Source of the DNA: a virus
Length of the DNA stretch: 64,000 bases
IMG/VR virus record: IMGVR_UViG_3300006109_000424
Span: 1-64,000 of that record
Reading direction: 5' to 3' (one strand)
In this document: in pieces, positions 12,014-36,351 of the stretch
How positions within the stretch are numbered: the stretch's first letter is position 1
Layout of the letters: each line of letters opens with the position of its first letter
Notes under the pieces: generated by a model
Database searches by the model: none
The model's input: the letters and a program-made list of their open reading frames with translations, nothing else
Told to the model about the DNA's origin: nothing
Translations under genes and position numbers: made by a program

Positions 12014-12256
12014 ATGCCCAAGATCACACTACATACCTTTACCATGGGTGATGTTGAAGACCCGTACTTGTATGCGGCCTTTCCTATATCTGAGTGGCAA
12101 AAGACTGAACAAGGCAAGTGGGTCATGGAACATGCTATAGGCGAAAGTACTTTTTATTGTAATGCAGATGCTAATACCTATGGCGTAAGAGTTGATATTG
12201 TAGGCGAGTTATCGGATCAAGATTTAACTTATTTTAAATTACGGTGGGGCCAATGA
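12014..12256 (+). CDS. Small protein of the F-x-L-R-W family, leaderless
   Basis: This 80-residue protein ends ELSDQDLTYFKLRWGQ, a full copy of the signature shared by the array at 5482-7686, here 4.3 kb away. The body is strand-rich (MPKITLHTFTMGDVEDPYLY). The ATG is six bases after TATAAT with no room for a ribosome site. The stop overlaps the epimerase start as ATGA, so it may serve to deliver ribosomes to that gene. Function unknown. Confidence 0.72.
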   Translation: MPKITLHTFTMGDVEDPYLYAAFPISEWQKTEQGKWVMEHAIGESTFYCNADANTYGVRVDIVGELSDQDLTYFKLRWGQ

Positions 12257-19368: not shown

Positions 19369-20556
19369 ATGGCCTTTCACTTTGTATACGATAGAGCCTA
19401 TGATCACCGTCCCTGGCCCAACCTGACACCTGTAGAACCTGTAAAAGACGGCAGCTTCCGGCGCCTGGGCGATAGTTGGCCGCGTATAGCACCCTGCAGA
19501 CTGCTCATGTACTGTGAGGATCATGCTTATCCCTACACAGTGTCATATGTCACCGACACCATACCCGCCGGTGCCTGGTATCCCATTGGCCTGGCCTGGT
19601 TTGACCATGATCTGGACTATTTTGCACTGATTCCCGAAAACACACTAGATCTAGTCCGAAACAGGCAGTTGACTGTGCTGTTTTACTATCACGAAGGTGA
19701 CAATCCGGTTCGGGAAAAACAGCGGCTTGATGCCTTGTGTCGGGCGCATGGTCTTGACAGCCAGTGCTATAGATTTGTGTCGGGCAACACAGCAGCCGCC
19801 GCACTGGAAGGTTTTGTCTGGTTCTGCGATCACGAGCTGTTTTACTGGCATGCAGACCAGTCTGCACTACAGGACCTGGGGCCATTGGCACATGATCGGG
19901 TCAGACCCTATACCTTTACCCTGCTGAGTCGCGTACACAAATGGTGGCGTGCCACTGTGGTTGCACATCTGCGCGACCTGGGTCTGTTGGACCGCGCACA
20001 GTGGAGTTATGGTGTGGAATCCTGTGGTGATCTGGCCGAAAACAACCCCATTGAAACGGTTCAACTGCCAGGTCTGGATCTGTCACAATTTGTGGCTGGT
20101 GCGCCCTATCGTTGCGACACACTCACAGCCGAGCAACACAATGATCATCGGCATCAGGTTGACTCCTTGTATACTGACTCTTACTTGAGTGTGGTCCTGG
20201 AAACTCTATATGATGCCGAACAGTCGGGTGGTGCTTTCATCACTGAAAAGACCTTTAAAGCTGTGCGCAACGGGCACCCGTTTGTGCTGTTTGGTTGTGT
20301 CAGCAGTTTGGCCGCTGTACAGAGTCTGGGCTATAGGACTTTTTCCAGCGAAATCGACGAAACCTACGACACAGTACAGCACAATAGCCAGCGTTTTGCA
20401 ACCACTGTCCGGGCCCTGCTGCAGGTGTTGGCACAGGGCAATTTGCACCAGTGGTATCAGCGTTTGGGGCCTGTGATACAATATAATCAACGGCTGTTTG
20501 CTGCCAGTAAATACTCAAGACTTGAAACCCTGGAACAACAGTTACAAAACCCATGA
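19369..20556 (+). CDS. Glycosyltransferase-like protein, paralogue 3
   Basis: This 395-residue protein has a different N-terminus (MAFHFVYDRAYDHRPWPNLT) but the same C-terminal block: SVVLETLYDAEQSGGAFITE then KTFKAVRNGHPFVLFG and GYRTFSSEIDETYDT. The coding sequence is G+C-rich compared with the structural genes. The stop overlaps the next start as ATGA, so it is coupled to a radical SAM protein. The sugar donor and acceptor are unknown. Confidence 0.6.
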   Translation: MAFHFVYDRAYDHRPWPNLTPVEPVKDGSFRRLGDSWPRIAPCRLLMYCEDHAYPYTVSYVTDTIPAGAWYPIGLAWFDHDLDYFALIPENTLDLVRNRQLTVLFYYHEGDNPVREKQRLDALCRAHGLDSQCYRFVSGNTAAAALEGFVWFCDHELFYWHADQSALQDLGPLAHDRVRPYTFTLLSRVHKWWRATVVAHLRDLGLLDRAQWSYGVESCGDLAENNPIETVQLPGLDLSQFVAGAPYRCDTLTAEQHNDHRHQVDSLYTDSYLSVVLETLYDAEQSGGAFITEKTFKAVRNGHPFVLFGCVSSLAAVQSLGYRTFSSEIDETYDTVQHNSQRFATTVRALLQVLAQGNLHQWYQRLGPVIQYNQRLFAASKYSRLETLEQQLQNP

Positions 20557-21605
20557 CCCAGTTAATTATACCCATTGCCAATCAGACCGCTTACCGCACG
20601 ATACCCAGAAATCGTGAGCTGGGTCATGTGATTGATCATCACTGTGACAAGCCCGCACGCAGCCTGGTCATAGACTGGAAAGGTGACTGTTTTATCTGCA
20701 GTTGTGAAGCCTGGTTGCCCATACCGGTCGGGCACATCCGGCAGTTTGAACGTCTTGAAGACATATGGCTCAGTCCGGTGGCTCGGCAGTTACAGGCCAC
20801 CATCACAGATCGTAGCTATGCCGAATGTGCTGTGGATCGCTGTGGTATTCTGGACGGTGACATACTGCAGGATCACTACACTGTCAGCATCAACATAGAC
20901 GAAAGTTGCAATTTGGCCTGTCCCAGCTGTAGATCTGAGTCCATCATGCTGTCTTCGGGTGCTGACTACCAAAACAAGCTGGACTGGAGTCGTCACATAG
21001 TGGGTCTGTTGGAAAAGACCGATTTGCCAGTTTGGATCATTATGAGTGGCAACGGAGACCCTTTGGCCAGTGCCATCATGCGGCCCTTGTTGCATCAGTA
21101 TCGGCCCCGAGCCGCACAACGTATTCGCTTGTATACCAATGGACTACTGTTGCAAAAACAACTGTCCAAGAATACCATTGCTGATCATATTTTTGAATAC
21201 TTTATCAGTGTAGATGCCGGTACAGCAGAGGTTTATGAACAGGTCAGACTGGGCGGCAGCTGGGCACAGTTGCTGAAGAATTTTGATTTTTTAAAATCCA
21301 TTACCGATCAGAATCATGCTCAGGTCCTGCTGTTGTTTGTGCTACAACAGGCCAACTATCAAGACATGGAAAACTTCATTCTACTGTGTCAACGCTACGG
21401 ATTCCGTGGCTGGATCAATCGTGTGGAAAACTGGGGAACCTGGCAGGATTTTGCTGCGCATGATGTGATTGGCAATACCGCACATGAACTGCATGTGCCC
21501 ACTGTGCAAAATCTGCGCTCGGTGTATCAACGCTATGCCAGTGATCAGATCAGGTTTGAGTCAAGTCTAGAGCGGCTAGCCAAGGATAAAAGTCCGATCG
21601 TGTGA
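20553..21605 (+). CDS. Radical SAM protein (plus-strand copy)
   Basis: This 350-residue protein carries the [4Fe-4S] motif SCNLACPSC (Cys 119, 123, 126), followed by MSGNGDPLAS, the GGEP-like strand, and YTNGLLL. The N-terminal 115 residues contain their own Cys set (CFICSCEAW, CAVDRCGI), possibly a second cluster placed before rather than after the barrel. Radical SAM enzymes cleave S-adenosylmethionine to start difficult C-H chemistry. It is coupled to the glycosyltransferase-like gene at 19369. It overlaps the convergent gene by 56 bases. Confidence 0.8.
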   Translation: MTQLIIPIANQTAYRTIPRNRELGHVIDHHCDKPARSLVIDWKGDCFICSCEAWLPIPVGHIRQFERLEDIWLSPVARQLQATITDRSYAECAVDRCGILDGDILQDHYTVSINIDESCNLACPSCRSESIMLSSGADYQNKLDWSRHIVGLLEKTDLPVWIIMSGNGDPLASAIMRPLLHQYRPRAAQRIRLYTNGLLLQKQLSKNTIADHIFEYFISVDAGTAEVYEQVRLGGSWAQLLKNFDFLKSITDQNHAQVLLLFVLQQANYQDMENFILLCQRYGFRGWINRVENWGTWQDFAAHDVIGNTAHELHVPTVQNLRSVYQRYASDQIRFESSLERLAKDKSPIV

Positions 21606-22227
21606 TGTTGGTCAATAATGGATCACCTGTTGCATGCCACTGGCCCTGTAGAGGCAAGGCCTGTTGATACAGTTGAATATCTGCATCTAAAAAGTTCTTT
21701 TCCAGGCGGTGATGATCGTCTACATACTGCTGTTTCAAACGGTCTAGATCGAGTCTGGCCTGTTGTGTGTTTTTGCGTGCCGGATCCTGACTGAGGTTTA
21801 TTCTGGGCACCGGAACAGCAATTTCTACTCCATGGTGCCGTAGATAGTTCTTGACCAGGATTTCGTAGTTGTAGTAGGTCTGATCAATTATGAAAAATTC
21901 AGTGCGTTTGAGAATGTCAGCTGGTATCATTTGACTTACCGGATAGCTGTGTTGATCAAACACAGCCGAAACCAGTAGGCGATTGACCTGTGTATTGTAC
22001 AGCAGATCACATTGATCGGTCTGTTCCAAGTATTCAATCACACCCATGGTGTGTCTGACCGCCGGCCAGCGTAGAAACGCAAAAAACCTAAATTGTTCCA
22101 GGTCTACGTTGGGTCGTAACAGATCTGTCATTTGCCACCCCAAGTTGTCAAATACCTGAGACCAACTACGACATGCGTTCTTGGCTAGGCTTATCCAGGC
22201 TAGACGGTTGTTGTGATGAAAGTACAT
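21550..22227 (-). CDS. Small protein, possibly sulfotransferase-like
   Basis: This 225-residue protein begins MYFHHNNRLAWISLAKNACR followed by SWSQVF. The A-K-N-A-C-R-S-W segment sits where sulfotransferase type 2 proteins have their K-x-x-x-T-S phosphosulfate loop, a weak resemblance only. YNYEILVKNYLRHHGVE and a C-terminal R-L-E-K-N-F segment follow. It is the last gene of the minus-strand operon, one base after the preceding stop. If a sulfotransferase, it would use PAPS from the host. Confidence 0.4.
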   Translation of the reverse strand: MYFHHNNRLAWISLAKNACRSWSQVFDNLGWQMTDLLRPNVDLEQFRFFAFLRWPAVRHTMGVIEYLEQTDQCDLLYNTQVNRLLVSAVFDQHSYPVSQMIPADILKRTEFFIIDQTYYNYEILVKNYLRHHGVEIAVPVPRINLSQDPARKNTQQARLDLDRLKQQYVDDHHRLEKNFLDADIQLYQQALPLQGQWHATGDPLLTNITRSDFYPWLAALDLTQT

Positions 22228-22228
22228 G

Positions 22229-23488
22229 CTAGCTCCACTCTCGAGCTAGCCAGGGCCACAGGCTAGTCCAGTCAGTGCCGCGACGGCGATCCAGTTCAGT
22301 CAGATAGATCTTTAGATCCTGTATGCGTTCGGGATCTCTAGGGGCCTGGCTGATCTGTTGCTGTATGCCGGCCATGTGTTCACGTGCATGACAGTGACGA
22401 TCTGTGTGTGTGGGCATGGCCGCTAGGATACGTTCAAAGGCCTGATCAAACACACCAGCGCCAAATATGTCAGGTACCAGTTCCAGGGGGTTTGTGGCCG
22501 ACATAAAGCTGAAGTGTATGCCCTGTTCCGGACGAACCGCTTCCCAGGCGTTGATGCGTTCAATCAGCTCGGGCAGGGTGTCTATGGTCAAGCTGGTTAT
22601 GGCCGCGTTTACACTGAGTGTGATCCAGGGTCGATCTAGACAGTAAGTGAAGTTTTCTTCCCATTCTGCCAGGTCCAGACCCCAGCGCACATATTCTTCC
22701 TGCGGGCCCCAGGCATCTAGACTGCCGGTTATCTGCAGTCTTGACAGTTTGCCGTCGGCCACCATGCGCTCAAATCGATCTATGTAGGCACGAAAACGTG
22801 CAGGTGCTACCTTTAGATTGGTAATCATGTTGAAGGTCAAGTCCGGATTGGCATGTGTTTCCCAGAATTCCAAGCTGGTATCAAATTCGGTCTGATAAAA
22901 CGGTTCTCCGCCCAGGATCTGATAGTAGCGTATTCGACGGTAGTTGTCGTTGGTTTCTAACCACTGCCAAAAGTCCGCCAGCATGCGTTCATAGTGCGGA
23001 TTGGTACGGCCTGGGTATCCAAACTCAACACGGCCCGATTTGAACACACCATAGCGACGGTTTTCATCGGCCCACTTGCTACTGAAGTGTTCACCACAGT
23101 ACACACAGGCCATGTTGCAGGTATTGTTGAAGTAGATTTCCAGTATGGTAGGTACCACTGCTACCGCACCCGGATCAGTCCACAGTTCTGTGGGTATACG
23201 ATCTGCATTGCCCGAGTCGGTCAGCTGATACTGTCGATCGCTCATGCCACCTGCGGCTTCGATGCGTTCACAGTACTGACATCCAGCCTGTGGCCAGCCG
23301 CCCTGCTTCATCAGCTCACGTGCAGCTATCTTTTCGGGTTGATTGTGGAAGTTGCCAAAGTTCTCAGGATCTATGGCATGCTGATCCACTCGATGACAGC
23401 TGCTGGTGGTGCCCTGTCCTAGATATATGGTGCTCCAGGCCCATTTGAGCACACAGGCTGTATCGCTTTTGATTGGAAATGTTTTCAT
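22229..23488 (-). CDS. Twitch-type radical SAM protein (class K-W)
   Basis: This 419-residue protein has an N-terminal Cys-rich segment (CVLKWAWSTIYLGQGTTSSC, later GCQYCERIEAAGGMSDR), then the cluster motif NTCNMACVYCGEHFSSKW. ILGGEPFYQTEF and a barrel strand MITNLKV follow. The order of an N-terminal CxxC-type segment before the barrel and the F-S-S-[KT]-W tail after the cluster are typical of the twitch-domain radical SAM proteins of large marine phages. Substrate unknown. It overlaps the carbamoyltransferase stop as ATGA. Confidence 0.82.
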   Translation of the reverse strand: MKTFPIKSDTACVLKWAWSTIYLGQGTTSSCHRVDQHAIDPENFGNFHNQPEKIAARELMKQGGWPQAGCQYCERIEAAGGMSDRQYQLTDSGNADRIPTELWTDPGAVAVVPTILEIYFNNTCNMACVYCGEHFSSKWADENRRYGVFKSGRVEFGYPGRTNPHYERMLADFWQWLETNDNYRRIRYYQILGGEPFYQTEFDTSLEFWETHANPDLTFNMITNLKVAPARFRAYIDRFERMVADGKLSRLQITGSLDAWGPQEEYVRWGLDLAEWEENFTYCLDRPWITLSVNAAITSLTIDTLPELIERINAWEAVRPEQGIHFSFMSATNPLELVPDIFGAGVFDQAFERILAAMPTHTDRHCHAREHMAGIQQQISQAPRDPERIQDLKIYLTELDRRRGTDWTSLWPWLAREWS

Positions 23489-24990
23489 GAGTGTACTCGC
23501 ACACCATACTGTGCTTCAAAACGATCTGCATCAGATCGGTCGTTGACCATGGGTTCTCCCCTGATGTTAAGGCTGGTGTTTAGGAGCATGGGGCAGCCGG
23601 TAGCAGCGTACCAGGCTTCCAACAGTGCTCTTATTCCTGATCCATCTTCAGGTACAGTCTGTATCCTACTGGTACCATCCACGTGGGTAACAGCAGGAAA
23701 CAGGTCAGGACGCCGGCAACGGCCAACGATCTGCATATACCTACTGTCAACAAAACCGCCAGGCATGTCAAAATAGTCCGCAACATGCTCCTCCAAAATG
23801 ACCGGTGCAAAGGGTCTAAACTGCTGTCTACGTTTGATTCGATTTACCTGCTCCTTTATATCTGATCCCCGCGGGTCGGCCAGTAGACTTCTATTGCCCA
23901 GCGCTCGGGGTCCAAATTCTGCCCGTCCTGACGCAACTCCACAGATCCGATCCTGTAGTAGACTGTGTACACAGGCATCAACCGGATAAGGTCCTGGAAT
24001 TGTTCGTCCTAGATAGGCGTTGCGCCAATTGACAGGGCCACCAAGGGCCAGGGCAGCAGCGCCTAGGCTACTGCCGGCATCGCCTGGGCAGGGCATGATC
24101 CAGATGTTTTCAAAATACCTGCCCAAGTTTCTGTTGGCCAGGCAATTGAGTGCTACACCACCCTGATATACCAGGTTTGTGCTCCAGTTGAAAGCACGAG
24201 CACGTGCCATTACACTGCCAATCAGTTCTTCTGCTAGTCGCTGTGCAGCTCCCGCAATGTCCTCGGGCTCGTGTCCACACATAAAGCCGGCAGATACTCC
24301 AGCATGTAGATTCTGTCTAAAACGCACCTGTTCCACACTGTCTACCAGCTCAGCGGCCATGCCCTGGGCTAGATCTTCAGTGTTGCGTCCATAAGCGGCC
24401 ATGCCCATGGTTATGTACTCTTCGTCCAGGGGATGTAGACCCACACGTTCAGTGATGGCACTGTAAAACAGGCCTATCGAGTGCGGGTAGCGTTGTACCC
24501 ATAACCGCTGGTACACAGCACGACCCTGTCCATCATACTCAGCTCCATATATGCTCACTGTATCAAACTCGCCTATGGCGTCAATGACCACCACAGTGGC
24601 ACGTTCAAATGGGCTGGTTTGAAAGCCTGCAGCTGCATGGCTCAAATGATGACTGTAACTGCGTTCATTTACGGCTTTGTGCTGATACCAGGCACCCAAT
24701 TGACGCCGTATTGCACCGCCGGTGGTCCAGGGCCCAGTGGGCCGTTGCCCAGAATATATTTGCTGTAGATTATGCATCCAGGGCCGCTCGTAGTATGCTA
24801 TAGTCGCAAACTCATAGTCACACAGTTCTGCCAGTAGTCCTTCACTCAGGTTGGCATCATTCTTCCGCTTGCTGTAACGTTCTGCATGCCCGGCAAACAC
24901 TATGTTACCGGCGCTGTCTAACACAGTGGCAGCAGCATCGTGAAATCCAGCACTGATGCCTAAGATATACTGATCTGTTGCCAGTTTCAT
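23485..24990 (-). CDS. NodU/CmcH-family O-carbamoyltransferase
   Basis: This 501-residue protein starts MKLATDQYILGISAGFHDAA, with the Kae1-like ATPase fold. It carries AERYSKRKND, YSHHLSHAAAGF (metal-binding His pair), VVVIDAIGEFDT, and the C-terminal GRAEFGPRALGNRSLLADPR hallmark with RQQFRPFAPVI. Members make carbamoyl-adenylate from carbamoyl phosphate and ATP and move the carbamoyl group to a hydroxyl, often of a sugar. It is full length. It sits amid radical SAM and glycosyltransferase genes, so a glycan or nucleoside acceptor is likely. A 33-residue gene overlaps its start. Confidence 0.9.
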   Translation of the reverse strand: MKLATDQYILGISAGFHDAAATVLDSAGNIVFAGHAERYSKRKNDANLSEGLLAELCDYEFATIAYYERPWMHNLQQIYSGQRPTGPWTTGGAIRRQLGAWYQHKAVNERSYSHHLSHAAAGFQTSPFERATVVVIDAIGEFDTVSIYGAEYDGQGRAVYQRLWVQRYPHSIGLFYSAITERVGLHPLDEEYITMGMAAYGRNTEDLAQGMAAELVDSVEQVRFRQNLHAGVSAGFMCGHEPEDIAGAAQRLAEELIGSVMARARAFNWSTNLVYQGGVALNCLANRNLGRYFENIWIMPCPGDAGSSLGAAALALGGPVNWRNAYLGRTIPGPYPVDACVHSLLQDRICGVASGRAEFGPRALGNRSLLADPRGSDIKEQVNRIKRRQQFRPFAPVILEEHVADYFDMPGGFVDSRYMQIVGRCRRPDLFPAVTHVDGTSRIQTVPEDGSGIRALLEAWYAATGCPMLLNTSLNIRGEPMVNDRSDADRFEAQYGVRVHS

Positions 24991-25088
24991 TTATAGATAA
25001 ACGGGTCTCGCTTGCGCAGTTCTCGCAGCTTTTTACGGTAGCGTATTTCCAATTGAATACGGTTGATTAGGTTTTTAATCCAAGACAT
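24987..25088 (-). CDS. 33-residue basic protein coupled to the carbamoyltransferase
   Basis: Reading from ATG 25088, it encodes MSWIKNLINRIQLEIRYRKK, then LRELRKRDPFIYK and TGA overlapping the next ATG. It has an amphipathic, strongly basic helix and a conserved-looking DPFIYK tail. It overlaps the end of the upstream gene by 22 bases and the carbamoyltransferase start by four, filling a gap that would otherwise be the only one in this operon. It may be a small subunit or partner of the enzyme; function unknown. Confidence 0.6.
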   Translation of the reverse strand: MSWIKNLINRIQLEIRYRKKLRELRKRDPFIYK

Positions 25089-26131
25089 TGTATTTGTTGT
25101 TCCTTGTAGTTGGGATCCGACCAATGATAATCATACACAACACTGGCTGTGCTGGTTCTAATGGCCACCACATTTAGGCGTGTATTTAACTGTCGCCAGA
25201 TCTCTCGGTAATCTTCTGTGCCAAAGCTTCTGATCAAATCCACCTGGCCCACCTGGGGATGTCCTATGGTCAGACTCCGGTCATCGGGGTCAAATCCGTT
25301 GCCGATCAGCCAGGTTCTAAAGTTGTTCAAGTTGCGAGTTTGCCAGGGTGCACCTGCAGGATTCTGTGCCCACTCTATGTCAAAATCGCCGGCAGCTTCT
25401 GTTTGTGGTTTTAGTGTTGTGGTTGTTAACAAGTCAGTACGATGATCTGGATCATACTGGGCTTCGTCTACAAACACTTCCCAGTGATGCTTGCCCACGG
25501 CCTTGTTTACACCCACAAATACTCCGCCCGTGGGTCTATTGATACTTTCGATACCAAACAGCTCGTAGTCTGCTTCTTCCAGCACAAAGCGCGGGCTGTT
25601 TAACCAGCACATGAGCTGACTGGGACGCATCCATTCAGGTTGTGTGTGTTTTTTACGCCAGCTCAAGGCCCAGGATTCAAATTCGTGACACAGACCGTTT
25701 AACTGGCGTATGTGCCATCTTGTGCTGGCATCAGCTGCGGTGTAGAACGCACTCATGGCACCGCTTACACCCTGTAGATCTTCAAAGTAGCGATGCAGTT
25801 GATTTAATCTAGGCTGAACAATTTCAAGATTACTGTCTAGTACTGTGTCCAGGGCAAAGTGATCTGTGATGGTGTAGCCCGGTACAGCGGCATTGATTTC
25901 TGCTATGCTGGCATTGATTTGATCCATCAGGTAAGCACCCGAGCGATCACCGTCGGCAAATCCAAAGAAGCAGTAGTTCTTTTCCAGGTGATACTGTTGA
26001 TCAATCAGGTGATTCAGGGCGGCCAACCACCGGCGACTCAGGCTAGAATCCTGCACATCAATGTACACAGTCTGTACCCGGTCTGGGCGGCCCAGATCCA
26101 TTTCAATAACATCAAGCAGCAATTGCGTCAT
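25067..26131 (-). CDS. Conserved operon protein of unknown function
   Basis: This protein has 354 residues from ATG 26131; a GTG at 26155 would add eight. I recognise no family. It has IDVQDSSLSRRWLAALNHLI and a helical core with NYCFFGFADGDRSGAYLMDQ. An H-E-F-E-S-W helix follows, and the C-terminal half is strand-rich. It lies between radical SAM and carbamoyltransferase genes with overlaps on both sides, so it is part of the same pathway. It could be a carrier or substrate protein; that is inference. Confidence 0.7.
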   Translation of the reverse strand: MTQLLLDVIEMDLGRPDRVQTVYIDVQDSSLSRRWLAALNHLIDQQYHLEKNYCFFGFADGDRSGAYLMDQINASIAEINAAVPGYTITDHFALDTVLDSNLEIVQPRLNQLHRYFEDLQGVSGAMSAFYTAADASTRWHIRQLNGLCHEFESWALSWRKKHTQPEWMRPSQLMCWLNSPRFVLEEADYELFGIESINRPTGGVFVGVNKAVGKHHWEVFVDEAQYDPDHRTDLLTTTTLKPQTEAAGDFDIEWAQNPAGAPWQTRNLNNFRTWLIGNGFDPDDRSLTIGHPQVGQVDLIRSFGTEDYREIWRQLNTRLNVVAIRTSTASVVYDYHWSDPNYKEQQIQCLGLKT

Positions 26132-27407
26132 ACCATTCCAATATTTCGTTGTCACTGCTCAATATGTCGGCCAGTGTAAGAGTATCCCCGCGGATCTGTT
26201 CCAATCGTAGCACACGCTGTTTGCCTCGAATCAGCCCGGCTTGATACTGATCTGGCCACTGTTCTGCAAACACCGGGCGGTTTTTCAACTGTAACAGCAC
26301 ATCTCTTAGTGCGCTGTTATTTAAGTTGGCCACTAGACTGTCAACTTTTTTGTCCAAGACTGCTCGGGGCAGTGCCAGCGGGCTCAAGACAATATCAGGT
26401 GTAAAGCTGAATATGACCTTGGCCAGGACATCTACTCCAAATTTGTCGGCCAACTGTTGGATGTTGGCAACCTCAAAAAGACCCGGAAGGGTGAGGGTAA
26501 AGTCGATTCGCATCTGTCGCCGGTGGGTAGATATGTTGCATCCCATCTCAAAGTTTCTACACCAGGTGTCATAGTCAAGTCCAGTTCTGATGTACTCACC
26601 TGTGGCTCCAGTACCGTCCAGACTTGCACAGATTTGCCAGTCCCTAAGATGAACCAGGATATCACTATAAAGATTAATAGACTTGTAATCAACCCTACTA
26701 AGATTGGTATTGTATCTAGCGTATACGCCATTTCCGTCTCCTTGATCTACAATTTGTTTCATATAACGCCAATGCTGTTCGTACATCAAGGGTTCGCCGC
26801 CGACCCAGTAGACTTCTTCTACACGATGTTCAGCCACAGCCTGAGCAAATTCTGCTTCAATCTGCGTGTCTTGAAACCGACTTATTTCGGCCCTTACTTC
26901 GGGTCGCATCCAGTTGTTTTTGGGATTTGTCCAGTCTATCATGTGGTGTTGCCGTTGTTCTGACTCCCATGCACTGCTCAACATGTCTCCGCAGGTACGG
27001 CATTTGAAATTGCATAGATTACTGAAACGATAATCCCAACTGACCGGCTTGACTGTGGTGTAACCAGTTGCATCGGTTGCGGCCATCACTGTTTCGTACT
27101 TGTGGCCAAACAGTTGATTAAAATAACTGCGATAAACATCGGTGTTCAGCAGTTTGTCGTTGCAGACTGCACATTCAGGCAGGGTTTCTCCGGCCATCAT
27201 GCGGCGCCGCACTGATCGCATGTGCTCGCTGTTCCAGTGCTCATCCAGAGTCAAGGGATGATATCGTCCTGTTCCAGAATCGGTATCTATGTACTGTTCA
27301 AAGCTCTGTGCAGGTTCTCTTGATGCACAGCACATGCGTCGTTCGGTTTGTGGGCTCAAATAGGTATGAGTCCAGGCGGCCATGCACAAGGTATCGGGTT
27401 TATTCAT
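26112..27407 (-). CDS. Twitch-type radical SAM protein
   Basis: This protein has 431 residues from ATG 27407 (TTG 27413 is the alternative). The N-terminal segment has CMAAWTHTYLSP and RRMCCASREP, then CAVCNDKLLNTDVYRS. The cluster motif is NLCNFKCRTCGDMLSSAW, then VYWVGGEPLMYEQHW and ASLDGTGATGEYIRTG. This is the standard order of the phage twitch family. Overlaps the previous gene by eight bases and the next by 20. Confidence 0.82.
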   Translation of the reverse strand: MNKPDTLCMAAWTHTYLSPQTERRMCCASREPAQSFEQYIDTDSGTGRYHPLTLDEHWNSEHMRSVRRRMMAGETLPECAVCNDKLLNTDVYRSYFNQLFGHKYETVMAATDATGYTTVKPVSWDYRFSNLCNFKCRTCGDMLSSAWESEQRQHHMIDWTNPKNNWMRPEVRAEISRFQDTQIEAEFAQAVAEHRVEEVYWVGGEPLMYEQHWRYMKQIVDQGDGNGVYARYNTNLSRVDYKSINLYSDILVHLRDWQICASLDGTGATGEYIRTGLDYDTWCRNFEMGCNISTHRRQMRIDFTLTLPGLFEVANIQQLADKFGVDVLAKVIFSFTPDIVLSPLALPRAVLDKKVDSLVANLNNSALRDVLLQLKNRPVFAEQWPDQYQAGLIRGKQRVLRLEQIRGDTLTLADILSSDNEILEWYDAIAA

Positions 27408-28605
27408 ATGCAATTAACTTTGCAAACTCAGGAGCCACAGCAACAAGATTTTCATTGCGTCTTGCATCTACCCGGCGTATTTCCTCCAGCATCTGTGTGC
27501 CCAGGTCCTGTGTGCCACGATTCATAAAATCTAAGATATTTGCAAATTCTTGTTGATGTCTTGCACTGACCTTGGCCTGCAGCAGTCGATCAGTCACAGC
27601 CTGTTTTACCACCACAGGCAAGTTGGCAATGCTAAAATACGGAGCATCGTGCATGATGTTCCAGTAGACAAAATCAAACGCCTGGGTATCGATCCAATTG
27701 GCCAGACCTTCAAGATACATGACATTGAACACGTTCACAGTACTACAAACCTGTAGCTGTATATTGCTGTGCTGTTTGCGCAACAGTCGAAACAGTTCCA
27801 GATTGCGTTCAACATCGGACCAAACAGCACCGGATCTTTGATACTCAAATCGGTCTTCTACATCATCAATGCTGACAGCTATTTCAACTGTTTTAAAATG
27901 GCGCCAAATTTCAATGGCCTCGGCTGGCCAATTGGTACCATTGGTATTGTAGTGTATTTCAATACGGTCAGCATGTCCTTGATCTACAATGCGTTGCAAC
28001 AAATCAAAGTGTTCTTGAATCATAAAAGGCTCACCACCGGTAAACTCAATGTATTCAAGTTGGTCCAACTGATCAGCAATTTGCTCCCAAAACACTATAT
28101 TTTCTCTGGGCCAACGACCCTGCTCCAGCATTTGATAATGAAAACTTTGTTTACCTGCACCTGATCGATCATGGGCTATTTCTTCTACAGCATAGGTCGA
28201 CGACGACCACGAGCCACAAATGCGACATTTTAGATTGCAGATATTGCCCAGTTTGAGATCAAGAAACATCAAGGGTTTGGCATCTACTGTCCATGTTTGA
28301 TCGGGCAACATGTGTTTGAGCCTATTTAATGTATGCATACGTTTGCTGGTACGACCTGCATCTTCTTCATTCCAACATTTACGGCAGGTCTTGGGTTGAC
28401 CGCCGGCCAAAAATTCAGACCTTAGATCCTGCATGTCTTGGCAGTTTTGCACAGCATCAAATGCAGCTGTCTTGAGATTAAACTTGTTGCCGTTGTGATC
28501 TCGCAATTCATTGTCGGCCAAACAACAGGGTCGTACTGTGCCAATAGGGCTGGTTTCTAAACTGACCCAAGGCAGTACACAAAATTTGCCATGTGGTATT
28601 TTCAT
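27400..28605 (-). CDS. Twitch-type radical SAM protein (class P-W)
   Basis: This 401-residue protein starts MKIPHGKFCVLPWVSLETSP at an ATGA overlap. RPCCLADNELR and CRKCWNEEDAGRTSKR follow, then the cluster motif NICNLKCRICGSWSSSTY, FTGGEPFMIQEHF, YNTNGTNW and VSIDDVEDRFEYQRSG. The C-x2-P-W...C-C N-terminal pattern is shared with the next gene upstream. Substrate unknown. Confidence 0.84.
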   Translation of the reverse strand: MKIPHGKFCVLPWVSLETSPIGTVRPCCLADNELRDHNGNKFNLKTAAFDAVQNCQDMQDLRSEFLAGGQPKTCRKCWNEEDAGRTSKRMHTLNRLKHMLPDQTWTVDAKPLMFLDLKLGNICNLKCRICGSWSSSTYAVEEIAHDRSGAGKQSFHYQMLEQGRWPRENIVFWEQIADQLDQLEYIEFTGGEPFMIQEHFDLLQRIVDQGHADRIEIHYNTNGTNWPAEAIEIWRHFKTVEIAVSIDDVEDRFEYQRSGAVWSDVERNLELFRLLRKQHSNIQLQVCSTVNVFNVMYLEGLANWIDTQAFDFVYWNIMHDAPYFSIANLPVVVKQAVTDRLLQAKVSARHQQEFANILDFMNRGTQDLGTQMLEEIRRVDARRNENLVAVAPEFAKLIAYE

Positions 28606-29858
28606 TGCAATGCGGCCAATTCTGGAATGACATTCAATATGTTTTGGCCACGAATTTGATCGAGTTTGTGTGTCTTGCGCCAAAAGGTATCTAACAAATG
28701 CGTGTTGTCTGTGGCCTGTAAAAAGTTGATGGCACTTTCAAATCCCACTGTGGCCCGTTGCAGTGGATCCAGCGGGCGCAACCATTCAAGATGTTTCTGA
28801 TAACGTTCAATCAGCTGTTGTTTATATGCAGGTGTTGCAATGTCAATACGGAAATATGTAGGATCTTGAAGTATGTTTACATTTAAATCTTGTGGGCGGA
28901 TCAATCCAGTTTCTGCCCACTGACGATGAAAGTCCGGTAAGCTCCAAGCATTCATTATGCTCAGTGTGGGACTGATATAAAAATCCACGTTGGGACAGGT
29001 TTGAATCATTTCTATGCGATTGGCAATGACCCGATGCCACTCGGTCCCTTGACGTATATATTCGGCACGACCGTGTTGATCATCTAAACTGGCTCCAACT
29101 GCTACACTTTTGAATCGTTTCCAGTAATCAAACACTGTACGATTTTTTAATTTGACATGCGTAAAGTTGGTGTTATATATGAGTCTCACATCAAAACGTC
29201 CGCGACGTTCCAATTCGTCTAGAATATTGTAGTGTTCTGCCATCATCAAGGGTTCGCCACCAGCAAAATATATCTGCTCCACATAGTCCAGGTGCGGAAC
29301 CAATTGTTCCCACATGTCGGTTTCGGTGCGGCCGGCATAGTTCAACACTTGGTTACGGTCTTTCCAATCGCCTCCGGCCAACCGGGCTTGATCCTGGTAC
29401 CAGCTACTACTGAATATGTGTCCACAACTACGGCAACTTAGATTACACAAGTTACTGAAGCGTATGTCCCAGTAGCTCATGCGAAATTCGTCGTCGTCGA
29501 TGCGCTTGATGTGATGTCCGTGATGTTTGTTGGCACTACGACGTCCGCTGAAGAATCCCGATTCTTCTTGCTCATAACAACGACCACATGCAGGATTAGG
29601 ACGTTCGTTTAGCATGTCGTTGCGTAGCTCTCGCATGGGAGCATCGCGATAGATTTCTTCCAGGCTCTTGAATCGGGTATTGCCCACAGGATATGCCATT
29701 TCGGCATGACAACACGGGTATGCTTCGCCAGTGGGGTAAGCATGTAAGTGTATCCAGGGATAGATACAAAATGTCTTTGAATCCTTTAATAGGAATTCTT
29801 CTCGTTGGTCAAGCTCTACCGGCCGGACTAAATCTGCTGAATTATACTTGTAGGTCAT
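28602..29858 (-). CDS. Twitch-type radical SAM protein (class P-W)
   Basis: This 418-residue protein has CIYPWIHLHAYPTGEAYPCC at the N-terminus. CGRCYEQEESGFFSGR follows, then the cluster motif NLCNLSCRSCGHIFSSSW, FAGGEPLMMAEHY, YNTNFTH and GASLDDQHGRAEYIRQG. The likeness to 27400 and 26112 suggests successive duplications. Overlaps: 17 bases with the preceding gene, four with the next. Confidence 0.84.
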   Translation of the reverse strand: MTYKYNSADLVRPVELDQREEFLLKDSKTFCIYPWIHLHAYPTGEAYPCCHAEMAYPVGNTRFKSLEEIYRDAPMRELRNDMLNERPNPACGRCYEQEESGFFSGRRSANKHHGHHIKRIDDDEFRMSYWDIRFSNLCNLSCRSCGHIFSSSWYQDQARLAGGDWKDRNQVLNYAGRTETDMWEQLVPHLDYVEQIYFAGGEPLMMAEHYNILDELERRGRFDVRLIYNTNFTHVKLKNRTVFDYWKRFKSVAVGASLDDQHGRAEYIRQGTEWHRVIANRIEMIQTCPNVDFYISPTLSIMNAWSLPDFHRQWAETGLIRPQDLNVNILQDPTYFRIDIATPAYKQQLIERYQKHLEWLRPLDPLQRATVGFESAINFLQATDNTHLLDTFWRKTHKLDQIRGQNILNVIPELAALQ

Positions 29859-31185
29859 TGTACCAGTCTGCTAATGTGGGAAATGTCTTGACAAAATCTT
29901 TGCTGCGACGGGCATCGTATTGTTGGTGGAACTGACGAAAATCATTGTGTAGTTTGGGCATATCAAAGGCATCACTGTGTGGAGTTTTGACCACATCTAA
30001 ATAATCAATCAAGCGTTGCACATGATTTAGTTCATGCTCGTGCAGGTAGGGATTGCGGTAGTTGCGGTTCCAAAAATCCTGCAACTGATCTCGATACCCA
30101 GTACGAAACTCTATAGGCAATATCAAGGCTGATTGGAAACTGGGGAAACGCAATATATTTAGTGTAAAATTCACACGCTCGCGCCCATACTGTTGCTTGA
30201 GTTCCAGCAACTGATACAACAAATTGGGCAAGCGTTCTAAACACAGAGCGTTAATGGTGCACATGCAATGTACAGCCTGTATGCTGTCTTGTTCCAACAG
30301 TGTTATTACATTGTCCATCCATTGCTGATAGTCCAGACCATCACGTATATATTCGGCTTGATCGTCTACGCTTTCCATGCTGGTGTATATTTCCAAATGA
30401 GGAATACCTGTGATCCGATCAACAAACTCTTGTAACTTTTCGGCATCCATGCCCAGGTTGCTGTTGATGGCCAACCGAGTGCTACTACGGCCTCGATTGT
30501 CTTTGAACCAATCAATCAGCTTCCAGGTCTCGCCCGACATGAGTGGCTCACCGCCAGTGATTCTCAGCTCCTGTAGTGTTTGATGCAGGTCAGTTTCCCA
30601 CCAGGCAAAGAATGCCTCCACATAGGGATTGGTTTCTCCAAAACGGTACAGCTGGGCTGAATCGTGTGGGTGCGTAAAATGATTGCGGCCGTCGCTGACA
30701 AGATTTGTGTAGGCGCCGTTGGTTTTGATATCTTTGACCCAGGTACTGGAGAACGCTGGATTGCAGTAGCTGCAAGCAAACTGACAGGTACGATCAAATG
30801 CAATTTCGAGTGTGCGCAGATTGACATCCTGCTCGGCCGGAGTTTGATAGGCCGTATCCAAGGCTTCTAGGGGATAAATTTTACTTTTGTACACACGGTC
30901 GCTGACAGCATCTCGACCCATGTCTTCAATTTTCCAGCAGTATTCACAACCAGCGGGACGCTCTCCAGCCAACATTTTTGCACGATCCTGTTTCTTTTGT
31001 ACAGTGTTGTGTATGGCTCGAGGATTTGTTTTAAGGGCCTCTGTATCTATTGAGTGTGCCGGAGGATGGTGACAACTAGTGGTTTGTCCTGATCCTAACC
31101 ATATGGTAGCATTGTACCACTTTGCAGCACAAAAACTGTCACTTTTGGTGTCTAATACTTGTTGTCGAAATTCTAAATCATTCAT
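29842..31185 (-). CDS. Twitch-type radical SAM protein (class K-W)
   Basis: This 447-residue protein has an N-terminal CAAKWYNATIWLGSGQTTSC, then CEYCWKIEDMG. The cluster motif is RTCQFACSYCNPAFSSTW, and RITGGEPLMSGETWK follows. The K-W...S-C-H N-terminal pattern groups it with 22229 and 32917, apart from the P-W class. Substrate unknown. Confidence 0.83.
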   Translation of the reverse strand: MNDLEFRQQVLDTKSDSFCAAKWYNATIWLGSGQTTSCHHPPAHSIDTEALKTNPRAIHNTVQKKQDRAKMLAGERPAGCEYCWKIEDMGRDAVSDRVYKSKIYPLEALDTAYQTPAEQDVNLRTLEIAFDRTCQFACSYCNPAFSSTWVKDIKTNGAYTNLVSDGRNHFTHPHDSAQLYRFGETNPYVEAFFAWWETDLHQTLQELRITGGEPLMSGETWKLIDWFKDNRGRSSTRLAINSNLGMDAEKLQEFVDRITGIPHLEIYTSMESVDDQAEYIRDGLDYQQWMDNVITLLEQDSIQAVHCMCTINALCLERLPNLLYQLLELKQQYGRERVNFTLNILRFPSFQSALILPIEFRTGYRDQLQDFWNRNYRNPYLHEHELNHVQRLIDYLDVVKTPHSDAFDMPKLHNDFRQFHQQYDARRSKDFVKTFPTLADWYNDLQV

Positions 31186-31801
31186 TGGTCAATTCCAAAT
31201 TATTTTGTTCTAATACTCGACCACACTCAGCCAAAAAATTTTCGTAGTCTGCAGATTTATGCATGGCATTGTACGACGACTGGACCAGGTCCGATGCTAC
31301 AGTTTCGTAACACAATTCCATCTTCATAAAAGTCCTGCACTGGGTATATTCTTCGTGCAACCGAGCAAGTCTTTTTGCCTGATTAGGCAAGTAACCTATG
31401 TGTGGTGCAGTTTTGTCCTGTTGTGCTGGACAATCCTTGGGATTATGCCAGACTTCTGAGCCATAGGCTGTGGCAAAACTGGCCAATTGGGCTACTCGAT
31501 CTTTTCGATAGATACCGATTATATAACTGTTGCTGAATAATGAATCAAAATAGCTGTCAGGGGGAATTTGGTCGCACATGAGTTTAACTATACAAGGTTG
31601 TGCATTGGCTCGATATCGATCATATTCTCTACCTCTCCTGCGGAAATGAAATGCTTCGTCTAAATTTGGGTATCCAGTAATGCGATGCAGAATATTACAC
31701 AAGGCTGTACTGCCGGTACGATAATTGGCCAATACAATTATACTTTGATTTTGCGGAAAAGTAAACCTGCACTGTGCCAGTTGGATCTCAAATGTATTCA
31801 T
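31178..31801 (-). CDS. Sulfotransferase-like P-loop protein
   Basis: This 207-residue protein has IIVLANYRTGSTALCNILHR (residues 21-40), the 5'-phosphosulfate loop of PAPS-dependent sulfotransferases (R-T-G-S-T-x-L). FSNSYIIGIYRKDRVAQLAS then resembles the 3'-phosphate loop with its Arg and Ser. It is short but nearly complete for bacterial or phage members. It would sulfate a hydroxyl on a glycan or peptide. Overlaps both neighbours by 8 and 14 bases. Confidence 0.72.
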   Translation of the reverse strand: MNTFEIQLAQCRFTFPQNQSIIVLANYRTGSTALCNILHRITGYPNLDEAFHFRRRGREYDRYRANAQPCIVKLMCDQIPPDSYFDSLFSNSYIIGIYRKDRVAQLASFATAYGSEVWHNPKDCPAQQDKTAPHIGYLPNQAKRLARLHEEYTQCRTFMKMELCYETVASDLVQSSYNAMHKSADYENFLAECGRVLEQNNLELTNE

Positions 31802-32933
31802 TGATAAACTGAAAAAAACGGTTTGGAAATTCTTTGCGGACTCGAATCCGCATTTCTACCAAGTGTTGTTGATTGTATTTACATACATCCTCGGCAGCCT
31901 TTAGGAAACTGGCCAAATCTTGATGGCACAAATCTTTCACCACCTGTGCGATGCGCATGATACGGTCTTGGGGATCATCAATTTGATCAAATGATTCGTC
32001 GATTAGGTGTCCCCAGGTGCGGAATCCTAAATTGTGAAAATCTCTATAGTAGCCCTGATTTGCAACAAAAATGGTAGGGTGACCCATGGCTATCGGTTTC
32101 CAAGTTTTTTCTGTACGGAAACTGTAAGGATATTCAAATACGGTTTCGGTTACCACACTAAAATAGGTGTCAATATACGGGGCAGCTTTGAGATAGATGT
32201 CGCCCCATTCGTTGTTAAACAAGTGATATTTTACAAAAAGATCTTGATCAGTGTTGAGCGCCGGAACTCCAATTTGTGATTGATAACGATCAACTTCATA
32301 TTGAATTGGTAAATGCTGCACAGGAAAAACAGTATAATCTTTTGCTCCTAATTCGTTGGGTAACTTAAATGGTCGTAGTTTGAGAGGTCTTGAATCTAAG
32401 TTGGTCCACAGGCTTTGTTCCAGTAAACCCCAATGACAAAACAATTCAAGTAGGAATTTTCTATGCGACCGGCCGCGACCATTAAGAAATAAAAATTTGT
32501 AAGGTTTTTGTATCTTGGAAAATATTTCTCGACCGCAAAACATTTCAACTAAATTTTCTTCAGGGTCTAAAATTTTAGTTAAAAAAATGTCGTACTGTAA
32601 GCATGGCCAGGTAGTATCCATGTCACCACCGCCGATTAGCAATATCTTTTTGTTGTGCACCAAATCAGCAGTACGTGTGACCTGGTCACAATGTGTTTTC
32701 ATTGTGTCGGATCCTTCCATTGGGTTGCTCAGTACTGGTAAGATTGTACCAGCTTCGGCTAATTTGCGTATGCGATCAACGTTGAGATTAAATTGTTCTC
32801 TACCGATAAGGTAGATAGCACCAGGAATAACATCGTGAGTTGAAAATTCCCAAAATTCTGCGTCTGCATAGGATTTTATTAGATCGTATACTTCGCAAAA
32901 GGTATCCAGAACAACTTTACGATTGGCGAGCAT
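31788..32933 (-). CDS. Glycosyltransferase-like protein, paralogue 4
   Basis: This protein has 381 residues from ATG 32933 (GTG 32942 possible). It contains YFSVVTETVFEYPYSFRTEK followed by TWKPIAMGHPTIFVANQGYY and GFRTWGHLIDESFDQ, the C-terminal block of the three plus-strand paralogues at 17-20 kb. The coding DNA is much less G+C-rich than theirs, so the copies likely arrived by separate routes. LLIGGGDMDTTWP and FLFLNGRGRSHRKF are further landmarks. Confidence 0.62.
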   Translation of the reverse strand: MLANRKVVLDTFCEVYDLIKSYADAEFWEFSTHDVIPGAIYLIGREQFNLNVDRIRKLAEAGTILPVLSNPMEGSDTMKTHCDQVTRTADLVHNKKILLIGGGDMDTTWPCLQYDIFLTKILDPEENLVEMFCGREIFSKIQKPYKFLFLNGRGRSHRKFLLELFCHWGLLEQSLWTNLDSRPLKLRPFKLPNELGAKDYTVFPVQHLPIQYEVDRYQSQIGVPALNTDQDLFVKYHLFNNEWGDIYLKAAPYIDTYFSVVTETVFEYPYSFRTEKTWKPIAMGHPTIFVANQGYYRDFHNLGFRTWGHLIDESFDQIDDPQDRIMRIAQVVKDLCHQDLASFLKAAEDVCKYNQQHLVEMRIRVRKEFPNRFFQFINEYI

Positions 32934-34854
32934 AGTACTCACATTCGCGCCACCAAGCGGCCATTTCTGGAAATGTAGTTAAAAAGTCGGTGCCATGTCG
33001 CCGGTCGGCTTCTGCAAAAAAACGATAAAAATCTGCTTTTTGCTGTTTAATGTATATTGGATCTAACTTTTGTCCATCACGCATCCAAGCAATGTCTCTG
33101 TCAAGTCGAGAAATTTCGTAATCTTTGAATCCTTGAAAACGTGTGGCTTCGGTTTCGATCTGACGTATCATCCAGGCCCATAAATGTTCTAACTGTTCTA
33201 CGTAACTTTCTGGCAAGATTTGTAGACTTTGCCAGGTGGGTTGCCGTAATACCGGAGTATCAAACCATACACGCTGATAGGTCTTTGAATACAACTTACG
33301 CAGGCCTAGTATGCCGGCAAACAGACTACTGAGATTGGTCACCGATAGATTGTTCATGGTCACAATAAAGGTTATGCTGTTGCGCCCTGGTATTTCTGTT
33401 AAGAATTGATTTACACGATCCCATAATAAATTAAAATCTAAACCGTTACGGATATATTCAGCCTGTGCCCCCCAAGAATCTATACTAATGTATTGCATGA
33501 AATGTTCAATCTGTTCGCCTTCGCATAGTTGCTTGACATAGCCTTTGTATCGTTGCCACGACTTTTCGTCCACACTAAAGTTGCTGGTCACATTCAAGTG
33601 CAGGTCTGGCTTGGGATTGGCCAACACATAGTCAAACACACGATAGGTATTTTTGTCCAGCATGGGTTCGCCGCCGGTCATTCTGAAATGTTCTAGCTCT
33701 GGATATAGTTGAGGCCACCAAGACCAAAATGCATCTACATAGAGATTGTCCTCTCTTACCGGAATTGGTTTACGATCCCCAGTGAAATAACTAGGATCAT
33801 TGTGTTGAGTGCTAGTGGGATAAGCGCCAAACTGATCCACTTCCTGTTGCCAACTTGAACTAAATTGAGGGCTACAGTAGCTACATTTAAGATTGCAAGC
33901 GTGATTAAAATTAACTTCAACATAACTAGGTGTAATATCATCGTCCCATTCTCCACTTACAATTTTTCCAAAGTCTTTGGCAGCCCAAGACTCGCCGCTG
34001 CGATAGTGTCGATCACTTAGTTTGCCGTTGTCTTCCATGGCCCAACAATAATTACATTCACTGGGTCTTTCTCCTTTTAACATCAGCTGTCTTTGAGTTT
34101 TTTTATAGGCGGTGTTATGCAACCCACTAGGACTACGTTGGATATCTTCTAGTTGAATTTTGTGTAAAGGAGGATGATAGCAGGAATTATTAAGTCCTGT
34201 AGTTAAATGTAGACTTACCTGTTTCCATTTTGCTAGACACATGCTGGGACTTATTTTGTCCAAGCGTTGTTTCATTATTTCGGCGTCGTTAAGAAATTTA
34301 CTCTTAAATCCATCTACAATTTTATCTCCTGGTACCATTGATAAGTCATGTTCTATGTGTTCGGCGCTGACCTGATCGTATTCAGCAGAATCAATACTGT
34401 TTAGTTCTTTTCGCATAATTTTGGCAAATTCCGAGTTGTCTGTGTCAATATTAATTATACTAGTAGCACCCAAGGTATCCATTGGATATTCGTTATAGTA
34501 TCGACGATGATAGGCAGTGTGAGCTCGAGCATGTTCTAATTTATTAGGCATGTTTTTATTTTTATGCTGATCTGCAAGATACCATTCTCTCTTTAAACTT
34601 TTGCCTAAATCTGCTTGTAGTACAATAATTTCTCTTTGGTTAGGAAATAGTTTTTTAATCAGTGGAACATTTACGCAATGGGTCAGTATTAATTCGCAGT
34701 CTGCTAGGTCAGACTGTGTGGTCAAATATCGATAATCGGGCAATTGATTGGTTAATAAATGATCATAGGTGGTTTGTGTTTTAAAATCCCGTTGGCCGGC
34801 TAGATAACGATAATACCTATTTCCGCCGGCGCCAGGATAAAATGCAATAACCAT
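32917..34854 (-). CDS. Fusion: N-terminal P-loop domain plus twitch-type radical SAM protein
   Basis: This 645-residue protein is the first gene of the operon. Residues 1 to about 200 begin MVIAFYPGAGGNRYYRYLAG, a P-loop-like G-A-G-G-N-R start reminiscent of sulfotransferase or kinase-like domains. The rest is a radical SAM protein: CLAKWKQVSLHLTTG, CNYCWAMEDNGKLSDR, cluster motif HACNLKCSYCSPQFSSSW, RMTGGEPMLDKNTY, YISIDSWGAQAEYIRNG. Its ATG lies seven bases after the TATAAT of the promoter, so the mRNA is close to leaderless. Confidence 0.8.
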   Translation of the reverse strand: MVIAFYPGAGGNRYYRYLAGQRDFKTQTTYDHLLTNQLPDYRYLTTQSDLADCELILTHCVNVPLIKKLFPNQREIIVLQADLGKSLKREWYLADQHKNKNMPNKLEHARAHTAYHRRYYNEYPMDTLGATSIINIDTDNSEFAKIMRKELNSIDSAEYDQVSAEHIEHDLSMVPGDKIVDGFKSKFLNDAEIMKQRLDKISPSMCLAKWKQVSLHLTTGLNNSCYHPPLHKIQLEDIQRSPSGLHNTAYKKTQRQLMLKGERPSECNYCWAMEDNGKLSDRHYRSGESWAAKDFGKIVSGEWDDDITPSYVEVNFNHACNLKCSYCSPQFSSSWQQEVDQFGAYPTSTQHNDPSYFTGDRKPIPVREDNLYVDAFWSWWPQLYPELEHFRMTGGEPMLDKNTYRVFDYVLANPKPDLHLNVTSNFSVDEKSWQRYKGYVKQLCEGEQIEHFMQYISIDSWGAQAEYIRNGLDFNLLWDRVNQFLTEIPGRNSITFIVTMNNLSVTNLSSLFAGILGLRKLYSKTYQRVWFDTPVLRQPTWQSLQILPESYVEQLEHLWAWMIRQIETEATRFQGFKDYEISRLDRDIAWMRDGQKLDPIYIKQQKADFYRFFAEADRRHGTDFLTTFPEMAAWWRECEYYARQS

Positions 34855-34861
34855 TTTTACT

Positions 34862-34890
34862 ATTATACACTAATTTGTTAAAAAAATCAA
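34862..34890 (-). promoter_or_regulatory. Promoter of the 12-gene radical SAM operon
   Basis: On the minus strand, TTGATT (34890-34885), a 17-base spacer and TATAAT (34867-34862), then AGTAAAA and ATG 34854. Confidence 0.72.
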
Positions 34891-35133
34891 AAATATTTTA
34901 GATCAGAGGACAACAATCGCACTGGGCTAATATCAGAATTGGATAATATTGAATTAGATAAATTGTTTGTCGCCCATCTTGAGTGCTCAAGTATTAATAC
35001 ATTCATGACAACTATTTATGGACTACTTTCAACACCTCAACCAATTAGTGGCCTGGCCCGAGACGGATTTCATTATGGACCCAAAACACATCAACAATTA
35101 GCAGAAAAAATTACCAACCTTCTTGATTTCTAA
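34882..35133 (+). pseudogene. C-terminal remnant, possibly of an SGNH/GDSL hydrolase
   Basis: The plus-strand frame is open from a TAA at 34879 to a stop at 35133 but has no convincing start. It ends ISGLARDGFHYGPKTHQQLA followed by EKITNLLDF, resembling the D-x2-H block V near the C-terminus of SGNH hydrolases. The upstream catalytic Ser block is missing. The break coincides with the promoter of the minus-strand operon. It could also be a real small gene starting from TTG 34939 (64 residues). Confidence 0.4.
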
Positions 35134-36049: not shown

Positions 36050-36351
36050 TTAGTATTTGATCCTAAGGCATTTACCACAACAGCAACATCTTGCGGGTGA
36101 CATGTGGTGCCTATATCTCCTGGAACCAACTTATGTACCACTACTGTTTTGATCCGAACTAATATTCCGTTGAGTATGCGGACATTGGCTGGATTATGCC
36201 AGGTATCGTAATCGATCTCTATATAGTTACCTGGGACCGATTCCATGCTGTAAAATAAAGGCCAGCCCTGATCGTCATAATACAATCTATAGATCGGTGC
36301 AGGCGGAGCTGGAACAGGAGCTAGTGCGTTCCAAAAATCATTTTCAGTCAT
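36034..36351 (-). CDS. Small conserved phage protein
   Basis: This 105-residue protein has a Pro-rich start (FWNALAPVPAPPAPIYRLYY) followed by DDQGWPLFYSMESVPGNYIE. I have seen similar small proteins next to glycosyltransferases in large marine phages but know no function. It overlaps both neighbours (16 and 8 bases), so it belongs to the glycosyltransferase operon. Confidence 0.7.
   Translation of the reverse strand: MTENDFWNALAPVPAPPAPIYRLYYDDQGWPLFYSMESVPGNYIEIDYDTWHNPANVRILNGILVRIKTVVVHKLVPGDIGTTCHPQDVAVVVNALGSNTKWSVK

Follow-up and report, generated by a model that had tools for sequence, protein, structure and literature searches.

Why would one virus carry seven radical S-adenosylmethionine (rSAM) genes beside genes for carbamoyl and sulfate transfer, and on what would the encoded enzymes act? 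This question is raised by positions 20553-34854 of the IMG/VR virus record IMGVR_UViG_3300006109_000424, analysed here as a window of 64,000 nucleotides that is part of a 71,616-bp contig. The locus is probably an inherited glycan-tailoring operon that belongs to the host-recognition region of a T4-like phage from a lake.

The operon and its conserved core

The minus-strand operon (21550-34854) consists of 11 genes, one fewer than counted in an earlier note on this DNA, and codes for six N-twitch rSAM proteins, a NodU/CmcH carbamoyltransferase, an Stf0-like sulfotransferase, a GT-B-like protein, the phage-only protein W25067 and a small protein. Most neighbouring genes overlap by a few bases, as described before, and there is a single gap of 76 bp. 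A scan of viral contigs with W28602, one of the rSAM proteins, retrieved 203 relatives; the locus counts given below refer to the best 80 of these, which are 72-83% identical. A few of these contigs nearly duplicate one another, so that there are somewhat fewer than 80 independent cases. Eight genes, five of them rSAM genes, form a core, listed here in the order of transcription:

32917..34854, minus strand: core rSAM 1, C-x2-K-W type; 314 bits against NF033640 over residues 202-634; orthologue in 78/80 loci
31788..32942, minus strand: core glycosyltransferase-like protein (W31788), probably of GT-B fold; AlphaFold pLDDT 91; in 75/80 loci
29842..31185, minus strand: core rSAM 2, C-x2-K-W type; NF033640 306 bits; in 79/80 loci
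28602..29858, minus strand: core rSAM 3 (W28602), C-x2-P-W type; NF033640 372 bits; 72-83% identity in 80 loci
27400..28683, minus strand: core rSAM 4, C-x2-P-W type; NF033640 350 bits; in 80/80 loci
26112..27413, minus strand: core rSAM 5 (W26112), C-x2-A-W type; NF033640 279 bits; in 76/80 loci
25067..26155, minus strand: core phage-only protein (W25067) with many invariant polar residues; AlphaFold pLDDT 87
23485..24990, minus strand: core NodU/CmcH-type O-carbamoyltransferase; PF16861 3e-48, PF02543 1e-34

Of the 71 loci that span the core, 67 have all eight genes on the same strand and in collinear order, and in the other four only a recognisable orthologue of W31788 is absent. Between the core genes zero to several genes are inserted, most commonly between 27400 and 26112 and never between 26112 and 25067. 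When W25067 is used as the query instead, relatives are found in at least 538 viral contigs, and in this second set W26112 is present in 80/80. The second set includes distant phages, in which the order is kept, the positions of 28602 and 27400 are occupied by 43-53% identical homologues, and one core member is occasionally lost. Reduced variants with three rSAM genes were considered and rejected, as the 'missing' positions in most such loci hold these 43-53% homologues below the threshold. The gene order is therefore more than chance, being conserved in about 80 contigs and again in the second set, for which a different gene was the query.

The rSAM assignments of the earlier note are borne out: over the full NCBIfam model NF033640 (N_Twi_rSAM) all six minus-strand members score above its curated cut-off of 170 bits, and all six have an intact C[NQ]xxCxxC motif, a GGEP motif and the four twitch cysteines. 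The CxxxCxxC motif and the four N-terminal twitch cysteines are also intact in all orthologues tested, including those of W26112, which were re-checked. Because all core motifs are intact in this phage and in its relatives, the degraded genes that the earlier note had considered are ruled out. The five core positions correspond in the tree to five separate orthologue groups and not to recent duplicates, with core rSAM 4 nearest of the five to bacterial members. The two N-terminal types proposed earlier, K-W and P-W, do exist, and the K-W members form one clade, but one member is of an A-W type, and in the order of transcription (K-W, K-W, P-W, P-W, A-W, K-W) the types do not alternate. Core rSAM 1 has an extra N-terminal P-loop-like domain of about 200 residues, sulfotransferase-like by motif only; in relatives this domain is also encoded by a gene of its own (cluster C31).

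The carbamoyltransferase was correctly recognised as well. Both the Carbam_trans_N and the Carbam_trans_C domain are present, the metal-binding and active-site motifs are conserved, and PDB searches retrieve NovN, GdmN and TobZ (1e-41 to 1e-67), which relates the protein to the sugar and ansamycin carbamoyltransferases. For W31788, called glycosyltransferase-like before, no Pfam or sequence match to glycosyltransferases (GTs) is obtained, but the top PDB matches of its AlphaFold model (OtsA, alpha-1,3-fucosyltransferase, BshA and WaaG) are nearly all GT-B enzymes.

Around this core the gene content differs. Four genes of this phage are cargo, found in few relatives:

22229..23488, minus strand: cargo rSAM (W22229), C-x2-K-W type; NF033640 221 bits
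31178..31801, minus strand: Stf0-like sulfotransferase, variable cargo; PF09037 4e-7 across 48 residues
21550..22227, minus strand: small cargo protein (W21550), sulfotransferase-like by motif only; two relatives at 62%
20553..21605, plus strand: seventh rSAM (W20553), of a different family with a SPASM-like N-terminus; TIGR04317 2e-14

The sulfotransferase, rightly named in the earlier note, occurs in only 2 of the first 80 loci, and W21550 has no significant Pfam or NCBIfam match. W20553, which faces the operon as had been noted, has SGNGDP in place of GGEP; its top NCBIfam match, TIGR04317, is far below the cut-off, and it reaches only 29 bits against NF033640 as compared with the required 170. 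The convergent W22229/W20553 pair recurs in two relatives' loci (L084 and L085), where the orthologues are 64% and 56% identical, respectively, and lie in the same place beside an arginine amidinotransferase gene. An amidinotransferase of this kind, related to AGAT (4e-17), StrB1 and SxtG, is encoded in 40 of the 53 relatives' loci that cover the site; none was found in the present contig when the window and the remainder were searched. Other cargo in relatives includes NAD-epimerase, GHMP kinase, PfkB/cytidylyltransferase, FkbM methyltransferase and AMP-ligase genes and, by motif, SGNH-hydrolase-like and sulfotransferase-like proteins.

This variation could suggest that the block is an assortment of redundant genes, gained by horizontal transfer and not serving a common pathway. 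The cargo does vary strongly between relatives, related records have 6-21 NF033640 matches each, and some phages have up to 21 such genes dispersed over the genome, as seen for the 21 N-twitch rSAM matches of L084 (346,856-bp record G021). However, five orthologous positions with constant order and strand and with intact motifs, also in distant relatives, make such an assortment highly improbable. The core is an inherited part of the phage lineage and not a random island. The term 'phage island' used before is therefore an understatement for the core, as its order is conserved in relatives, but it does describe the sulfotransferase and the sixth and seventh rSAM genes, which are island-like cargo. 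In 19 of 20 records W28602 is even closer to its counterpart in the window than the baseplate wedge protein is (57-78%), a comparison that is biased towards W28602 because the loci were chosen by rSAM similarity.

The likely product

The earlier note had proposed a multi-step decoration pathway acting on a sugar, a nucleoside or a peptide. There is good support for the pathway itself, as the genes of five orthologous rSAM proteins keep their order together with those of the carbamoyltransferase and the GT-like proteins. Among the three product classes a glycan is favoured, because the block abuts tail and GT-like genes, the cargo of relatives includes nucleotide-sugar enzymes, and three of the four cellular contexts of NF033640 members are glycan loci. 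Cellular members are rare, being found in 3/299, 1/78, 2/385 and 2/245 genomes (overlapping samples, with some of the matches on phage-like contigs). The most informative of these glycan loci (L108) is of O-antigen type and combines four rSAM genes with Wzm, RmlD, RmlC, WbsX and TylF, and one 854-residue bacterial protein (8579-11143 of L108, minus strand) consists of ABC_tran, Wzt_C and a C-terminal N_Twi_rSAM domain. Known Wzt_C domains bind the polysaccharide that is exported, and this fusion therefore points to a polysaccharide substrate. In the second locus (L109) the rSAM gene is near a GT2 gene, and in the third (L111), as read from the sequence, it lies among GT2, methyltransferase and epimerase genes.

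It is also conceivable that the operon modifies a protein. The rSAM proteins would then be peptide maturases whose target is structural, for example a tail fibre, with protein glycosylation taking place in parallel. Twitch/SPASM rSAM proteins are often maturases, weak NCBIfam cross-matches to maturases are seen, and tail genes precede the operon on its own strand. None of the cross-matches is near any maturase cut-off, however, and the core genes overlap or abut, leaving no room for a small precursor gene. Consistently, no short precursor peptide gene of a ribosomally synthesised and post-translationally modified peptide cluster adjoins the rSAM genes in the core, a distant precursor being possible, and the small peptide of the earlier note thus has no candidate precursor gene. 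Since, moreover, cellular relatives are found in glycan loci and one of them is fused to Wzt, modification of a protein is unlikely.

Hypermodification of the phage DNA, in which the carbamoyltransferase would act on hydroxymethyl-cytosine and the rSAM enzymes would elaborate the base, is a further alternative, and rSAM enzymes do occur in some phage base-modification pathways. The NodU/CmcH family carbamoylates substrates other than sugars too, and a phage-encoded family member is known to yield carbamoylated 5-hydroxymethyl-cytosine (PMC8670742). In that study the carbamoyltransferase and a thymidylate synthase occur together only in the modified contigs, whereas in unmodified contigs the carbamoyltransferase is found beside glycosyltransferases. 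A thymidylate-synthase/hydroxymethylase homologue (PF00303) was found in 0 of 18 related records, five of which exceed 300 kb and any of which may be incomplete. The known carbamoyl-cytosine route is therefore disfavoured, and DNA as the substrate is very unlikely.

Lastly, the rSAM proteins could be viperin-like or could feed host metabolism, such as pyrroloquinoline quinone (PQQ) synthesis, without any relation to glycans. Weak viperin cross-matches are observed, and in a Lake Baikal study the rSAM genes of a T4-like phage, presumably one of Methylophilaceae, were interpreted as PQQ-related (PMC7678222). Against this, the scores are 221-372 bits for NF033640 and at most 37.5 bits for viperin (NF038283, cut-off 180), the best PADLOC pVip match is 1e-10, and no PqqE model is among the matches listed. 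When the operon context is also considered, this explanation is extremely unlikely.

Flanking genes and genomic setting

Beyond the operon, the window contains further genes of putative glycan type as well as a very long virion gene:

35111..36049, minus strand: GT-A-like protein with a DGDN motif, upstream; PF13641 at E 0.014 only
36344..37111, minus strand: GT8-like protein, weak evidence; in 63/80 loci; glycogenin at E 0.2 only in a PDB profile search
37095..37895, minus strand: second GT8-like protein, with a DAD motif as read from the sequence; in 61/80 loci; no Pfam match
19369..20556, plus strand: convergent GT-B-like protein, by its TEKT.K motif; kept opposite the core in relatives
17014-18144 and 18078-19217, plus strand: tandem GT-B-like paralogues with a TEK-FKPI motif common to W31788; conserved neighbours
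12244..14263, plus strand: sugar-nucleotide dehydratase/epimerase and PseC-like aminotransferase; Pfam Epimerase 2e-41 and DegT 2e-55
41401-55827, minus strand: single open reading frame of 4808 residues, part of which matches the virion structural protein phrog_10938

The GT-A-like gene is conserved with the core (74/80 loci, median identity 70%), and its counterpart also precedes rSAM arrays in marine phages, where contigs show a flank of tail-protein, GT8-like and GT-A-like genes followed by up to about 15 rSAM genes. One such phage contig (C6, from a Rickettsiales metagenome-assembled genome; L098/L099) has about 15 rSAM genes in 27 kb behind the tail/GT8/GT-A flank. In another assembly, a 335-kb contig (C57 of genome G778; L197) carries phage-like GT8, GT-A-like, K-W rSAM, SGNH and UDP-sugar dehydrogenase-like genes; it probably represents a large phage that was assigned to a bacterial genome during binning. 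The NCBIfam matches of the 12244..14263 pair, dTDP-glucose dehydratase-like and PseC-like, are both below the cut-off. The two GT-B-like paralogues overlap by 67 bases, apparently as a result of tandem duplication. Next to them, a 927-residue protein (14229-17012, minus strand) has about seven F-D-[FY]-[TS]-W..PPYIYxFGxQ..PGATExKY repeats; the C-terminal part after the repeats resembles the GT-A-like protein of 35111, and the gene is kept opposite the operon in relatives. Elsewhere in the window, an AAA/MoxR-like ATPase gene (4330-5415, plus strand) lies close to a gene for a DUF2201 metallopeptidase/VWA protein (8741-10027, plus strand).

Upstream of the operon and on the same strand are a baseplate wedge gene (PHROGs phrog_10646, 1e-269) and the phrog_10938 virion gene, and outside the window the same contig has, as read from the sequence, gp46/gp47-like and gp55-like genes. 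On the basis of these baseplate, virion, gp46/gp47-like and gp55-like genes the contig is T4-like. Between 63130 and 21550 the main genes all lie on one strand, and the rSAM operon thus extends the structural gene run. As in the host recognition clusters of T4-like phages, where GT genes adjoin the tail genes, GT-like genes do so at this locus; hypervariability, the other mark of such clusters, is not seen for the core, which is collinear, only the cargo being variable.

The T4 late promoter TATAAATA does not occur in the window, so late expression cannot be argued from the promoter, and an Rfam search gave nothing. The ATG of the first core gene is preceded by a sigma-70-like TTGATT-17-TATAAT site (34890-34862, minus strand), which ends 8 bases upstream of it. 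A transcript starting from this region (34855-34890, minus strand) would be nearly leaderless, and sigma-70-like sites are about equally frequent in shuffled sequence.

Proposed pathway and comparison with known systems

Several observations weigh against a glycan-tailoring operon. The GT-A and GT8 labels depend on weak matches, the structural matches of W31788 to GT-B enzymes reach a best E of 4e-3 with a TM of about 0.3-0.4, and the window has no recognisable gene for a polymerase, a flippase or an exporter. For W25067 neither sequence nor fold gives a match in Pfam, PHROGs or the PDB, and its ten matches in a viral structure library are all uncharacterised phage proteins; no chemistry can be assigned to it. 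With the W28602 profile no PDB relative is detectable by sequence, no known substrate was found for any rSAM protein of the NF033640 family, and the fourth cellular family member (L198) is in a non-glycan neighbourhood.

Which genes are present, the integrity of their motifs, their conserved order and the families of the carbamoyltransferase and the amidinotransferase are established by the sequences. From the context of these genes we infer a glycan substrate, and the reaction types, order of steps and location that follow are likewise deduced. In the proposed pathway a short glycan would be built by the GT-B-, GT-A- and GT8-like enzymes. On this glycan each of the five orthologous N-twitch rSAM proteins, using its SAM-bound cluster and the auxiliary twitch cluster, may abstract a hydrogen at a different sugar position, resulting in dehydrogenation, epimerisation, deoxygenation or C-C bond formation. 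O-carbamoylation would be the task of the NodU-type enzyme, and phage-specific cargo would add a sulfate in this phage and, through the amidinotransferase, a guanidino group in most relatives. Most likely, the product would decorate the virion tail or remodel the infected cell envelope. It is a more doubtful proposal that an assembly line of the five dedicated rSAM enzymes and W25067, as a phage-only enzyme of unmatched fold, converts a common sugar into a hitherto undescribed, carbamoylated and often guanidinylated virion sugar that provides a fixed chemical identity, instead of a changeable coat, for a large group of aquatic phages.

Phage glycan genes are usually described as variable, whereas here the order of an rSAM-rich operon is kept across hundreds of uncultured phage contigs, some of them about 350 kb long; its product would therefore be basic to the life of these phages. 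Through the Wzt fusion, the operon also provides a context-based substrate lead, namely surface glycans, for the uncharacterised N-twitch rSAM family, and its core is a tractable set of about eight genes. If the same genes are concerned, the published PQQ reading of the Lake Baikal phage rSAM genes (PMC7678222) may merit re-examination.

Of the systems with which the operon can be compared, the carbamoylated hydroxymethyl-cytosine system (PMC8670742) also uses a phage-encoded NodU/CmcH-family carbamoyltransferase, but its thymidylate-synthase-family hydroxymethylase is absent from the 18 relatives searched here. Streptomycin- and saxitoxin-type tailoring shares the amidinotransferase (only in relatives), carbamoyltransferase and sulfotransferase chemistries; only these enzyme classes are common, scaffold-forming genes not being identified here. 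The ABC-exported O-antigen locus with Wzm/Wzt (L108) resembles the operon in its tandem N-twitch rSAM genes, one of them fused to Wzt, but it is cellular, it has exporter and rhamnose genes, and the stretch read has no match to the carbamoyltransferase or W25067. The T4-like aquatic phage TARA_ERS488813_N000010 has 12 rSAM genes, which the part of the report consulted files under Fe-S cluster metabolism, describing there no operon, glycan or carbamoyltransferase link (PMC5332604). In the literature searched, no published link between rSAM proteins, a carbamoyltransferase and phage glycans was found. The occurrence of rSAM cassettes in T4-like host-recognition clusters is already reported, and the conserved operon and its likely role are not. 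The closest description is that of the pelagimyophage/cyanomyophage host recognition cluster, proposed to alter the host O-chain, which is also a tail-adjoining region of T4-like phages with GT genes (most commonly GT8) and rSAM cassettes; the freshwater SAR11 phages of that study are without rSAM genes (PMC7029224). The rSAM genes of that cluster are variable cassettes, named in passing, whereas here five fixed orthologous rSAM positions are combined in one operon with a carbamoyltransferase and W25067.

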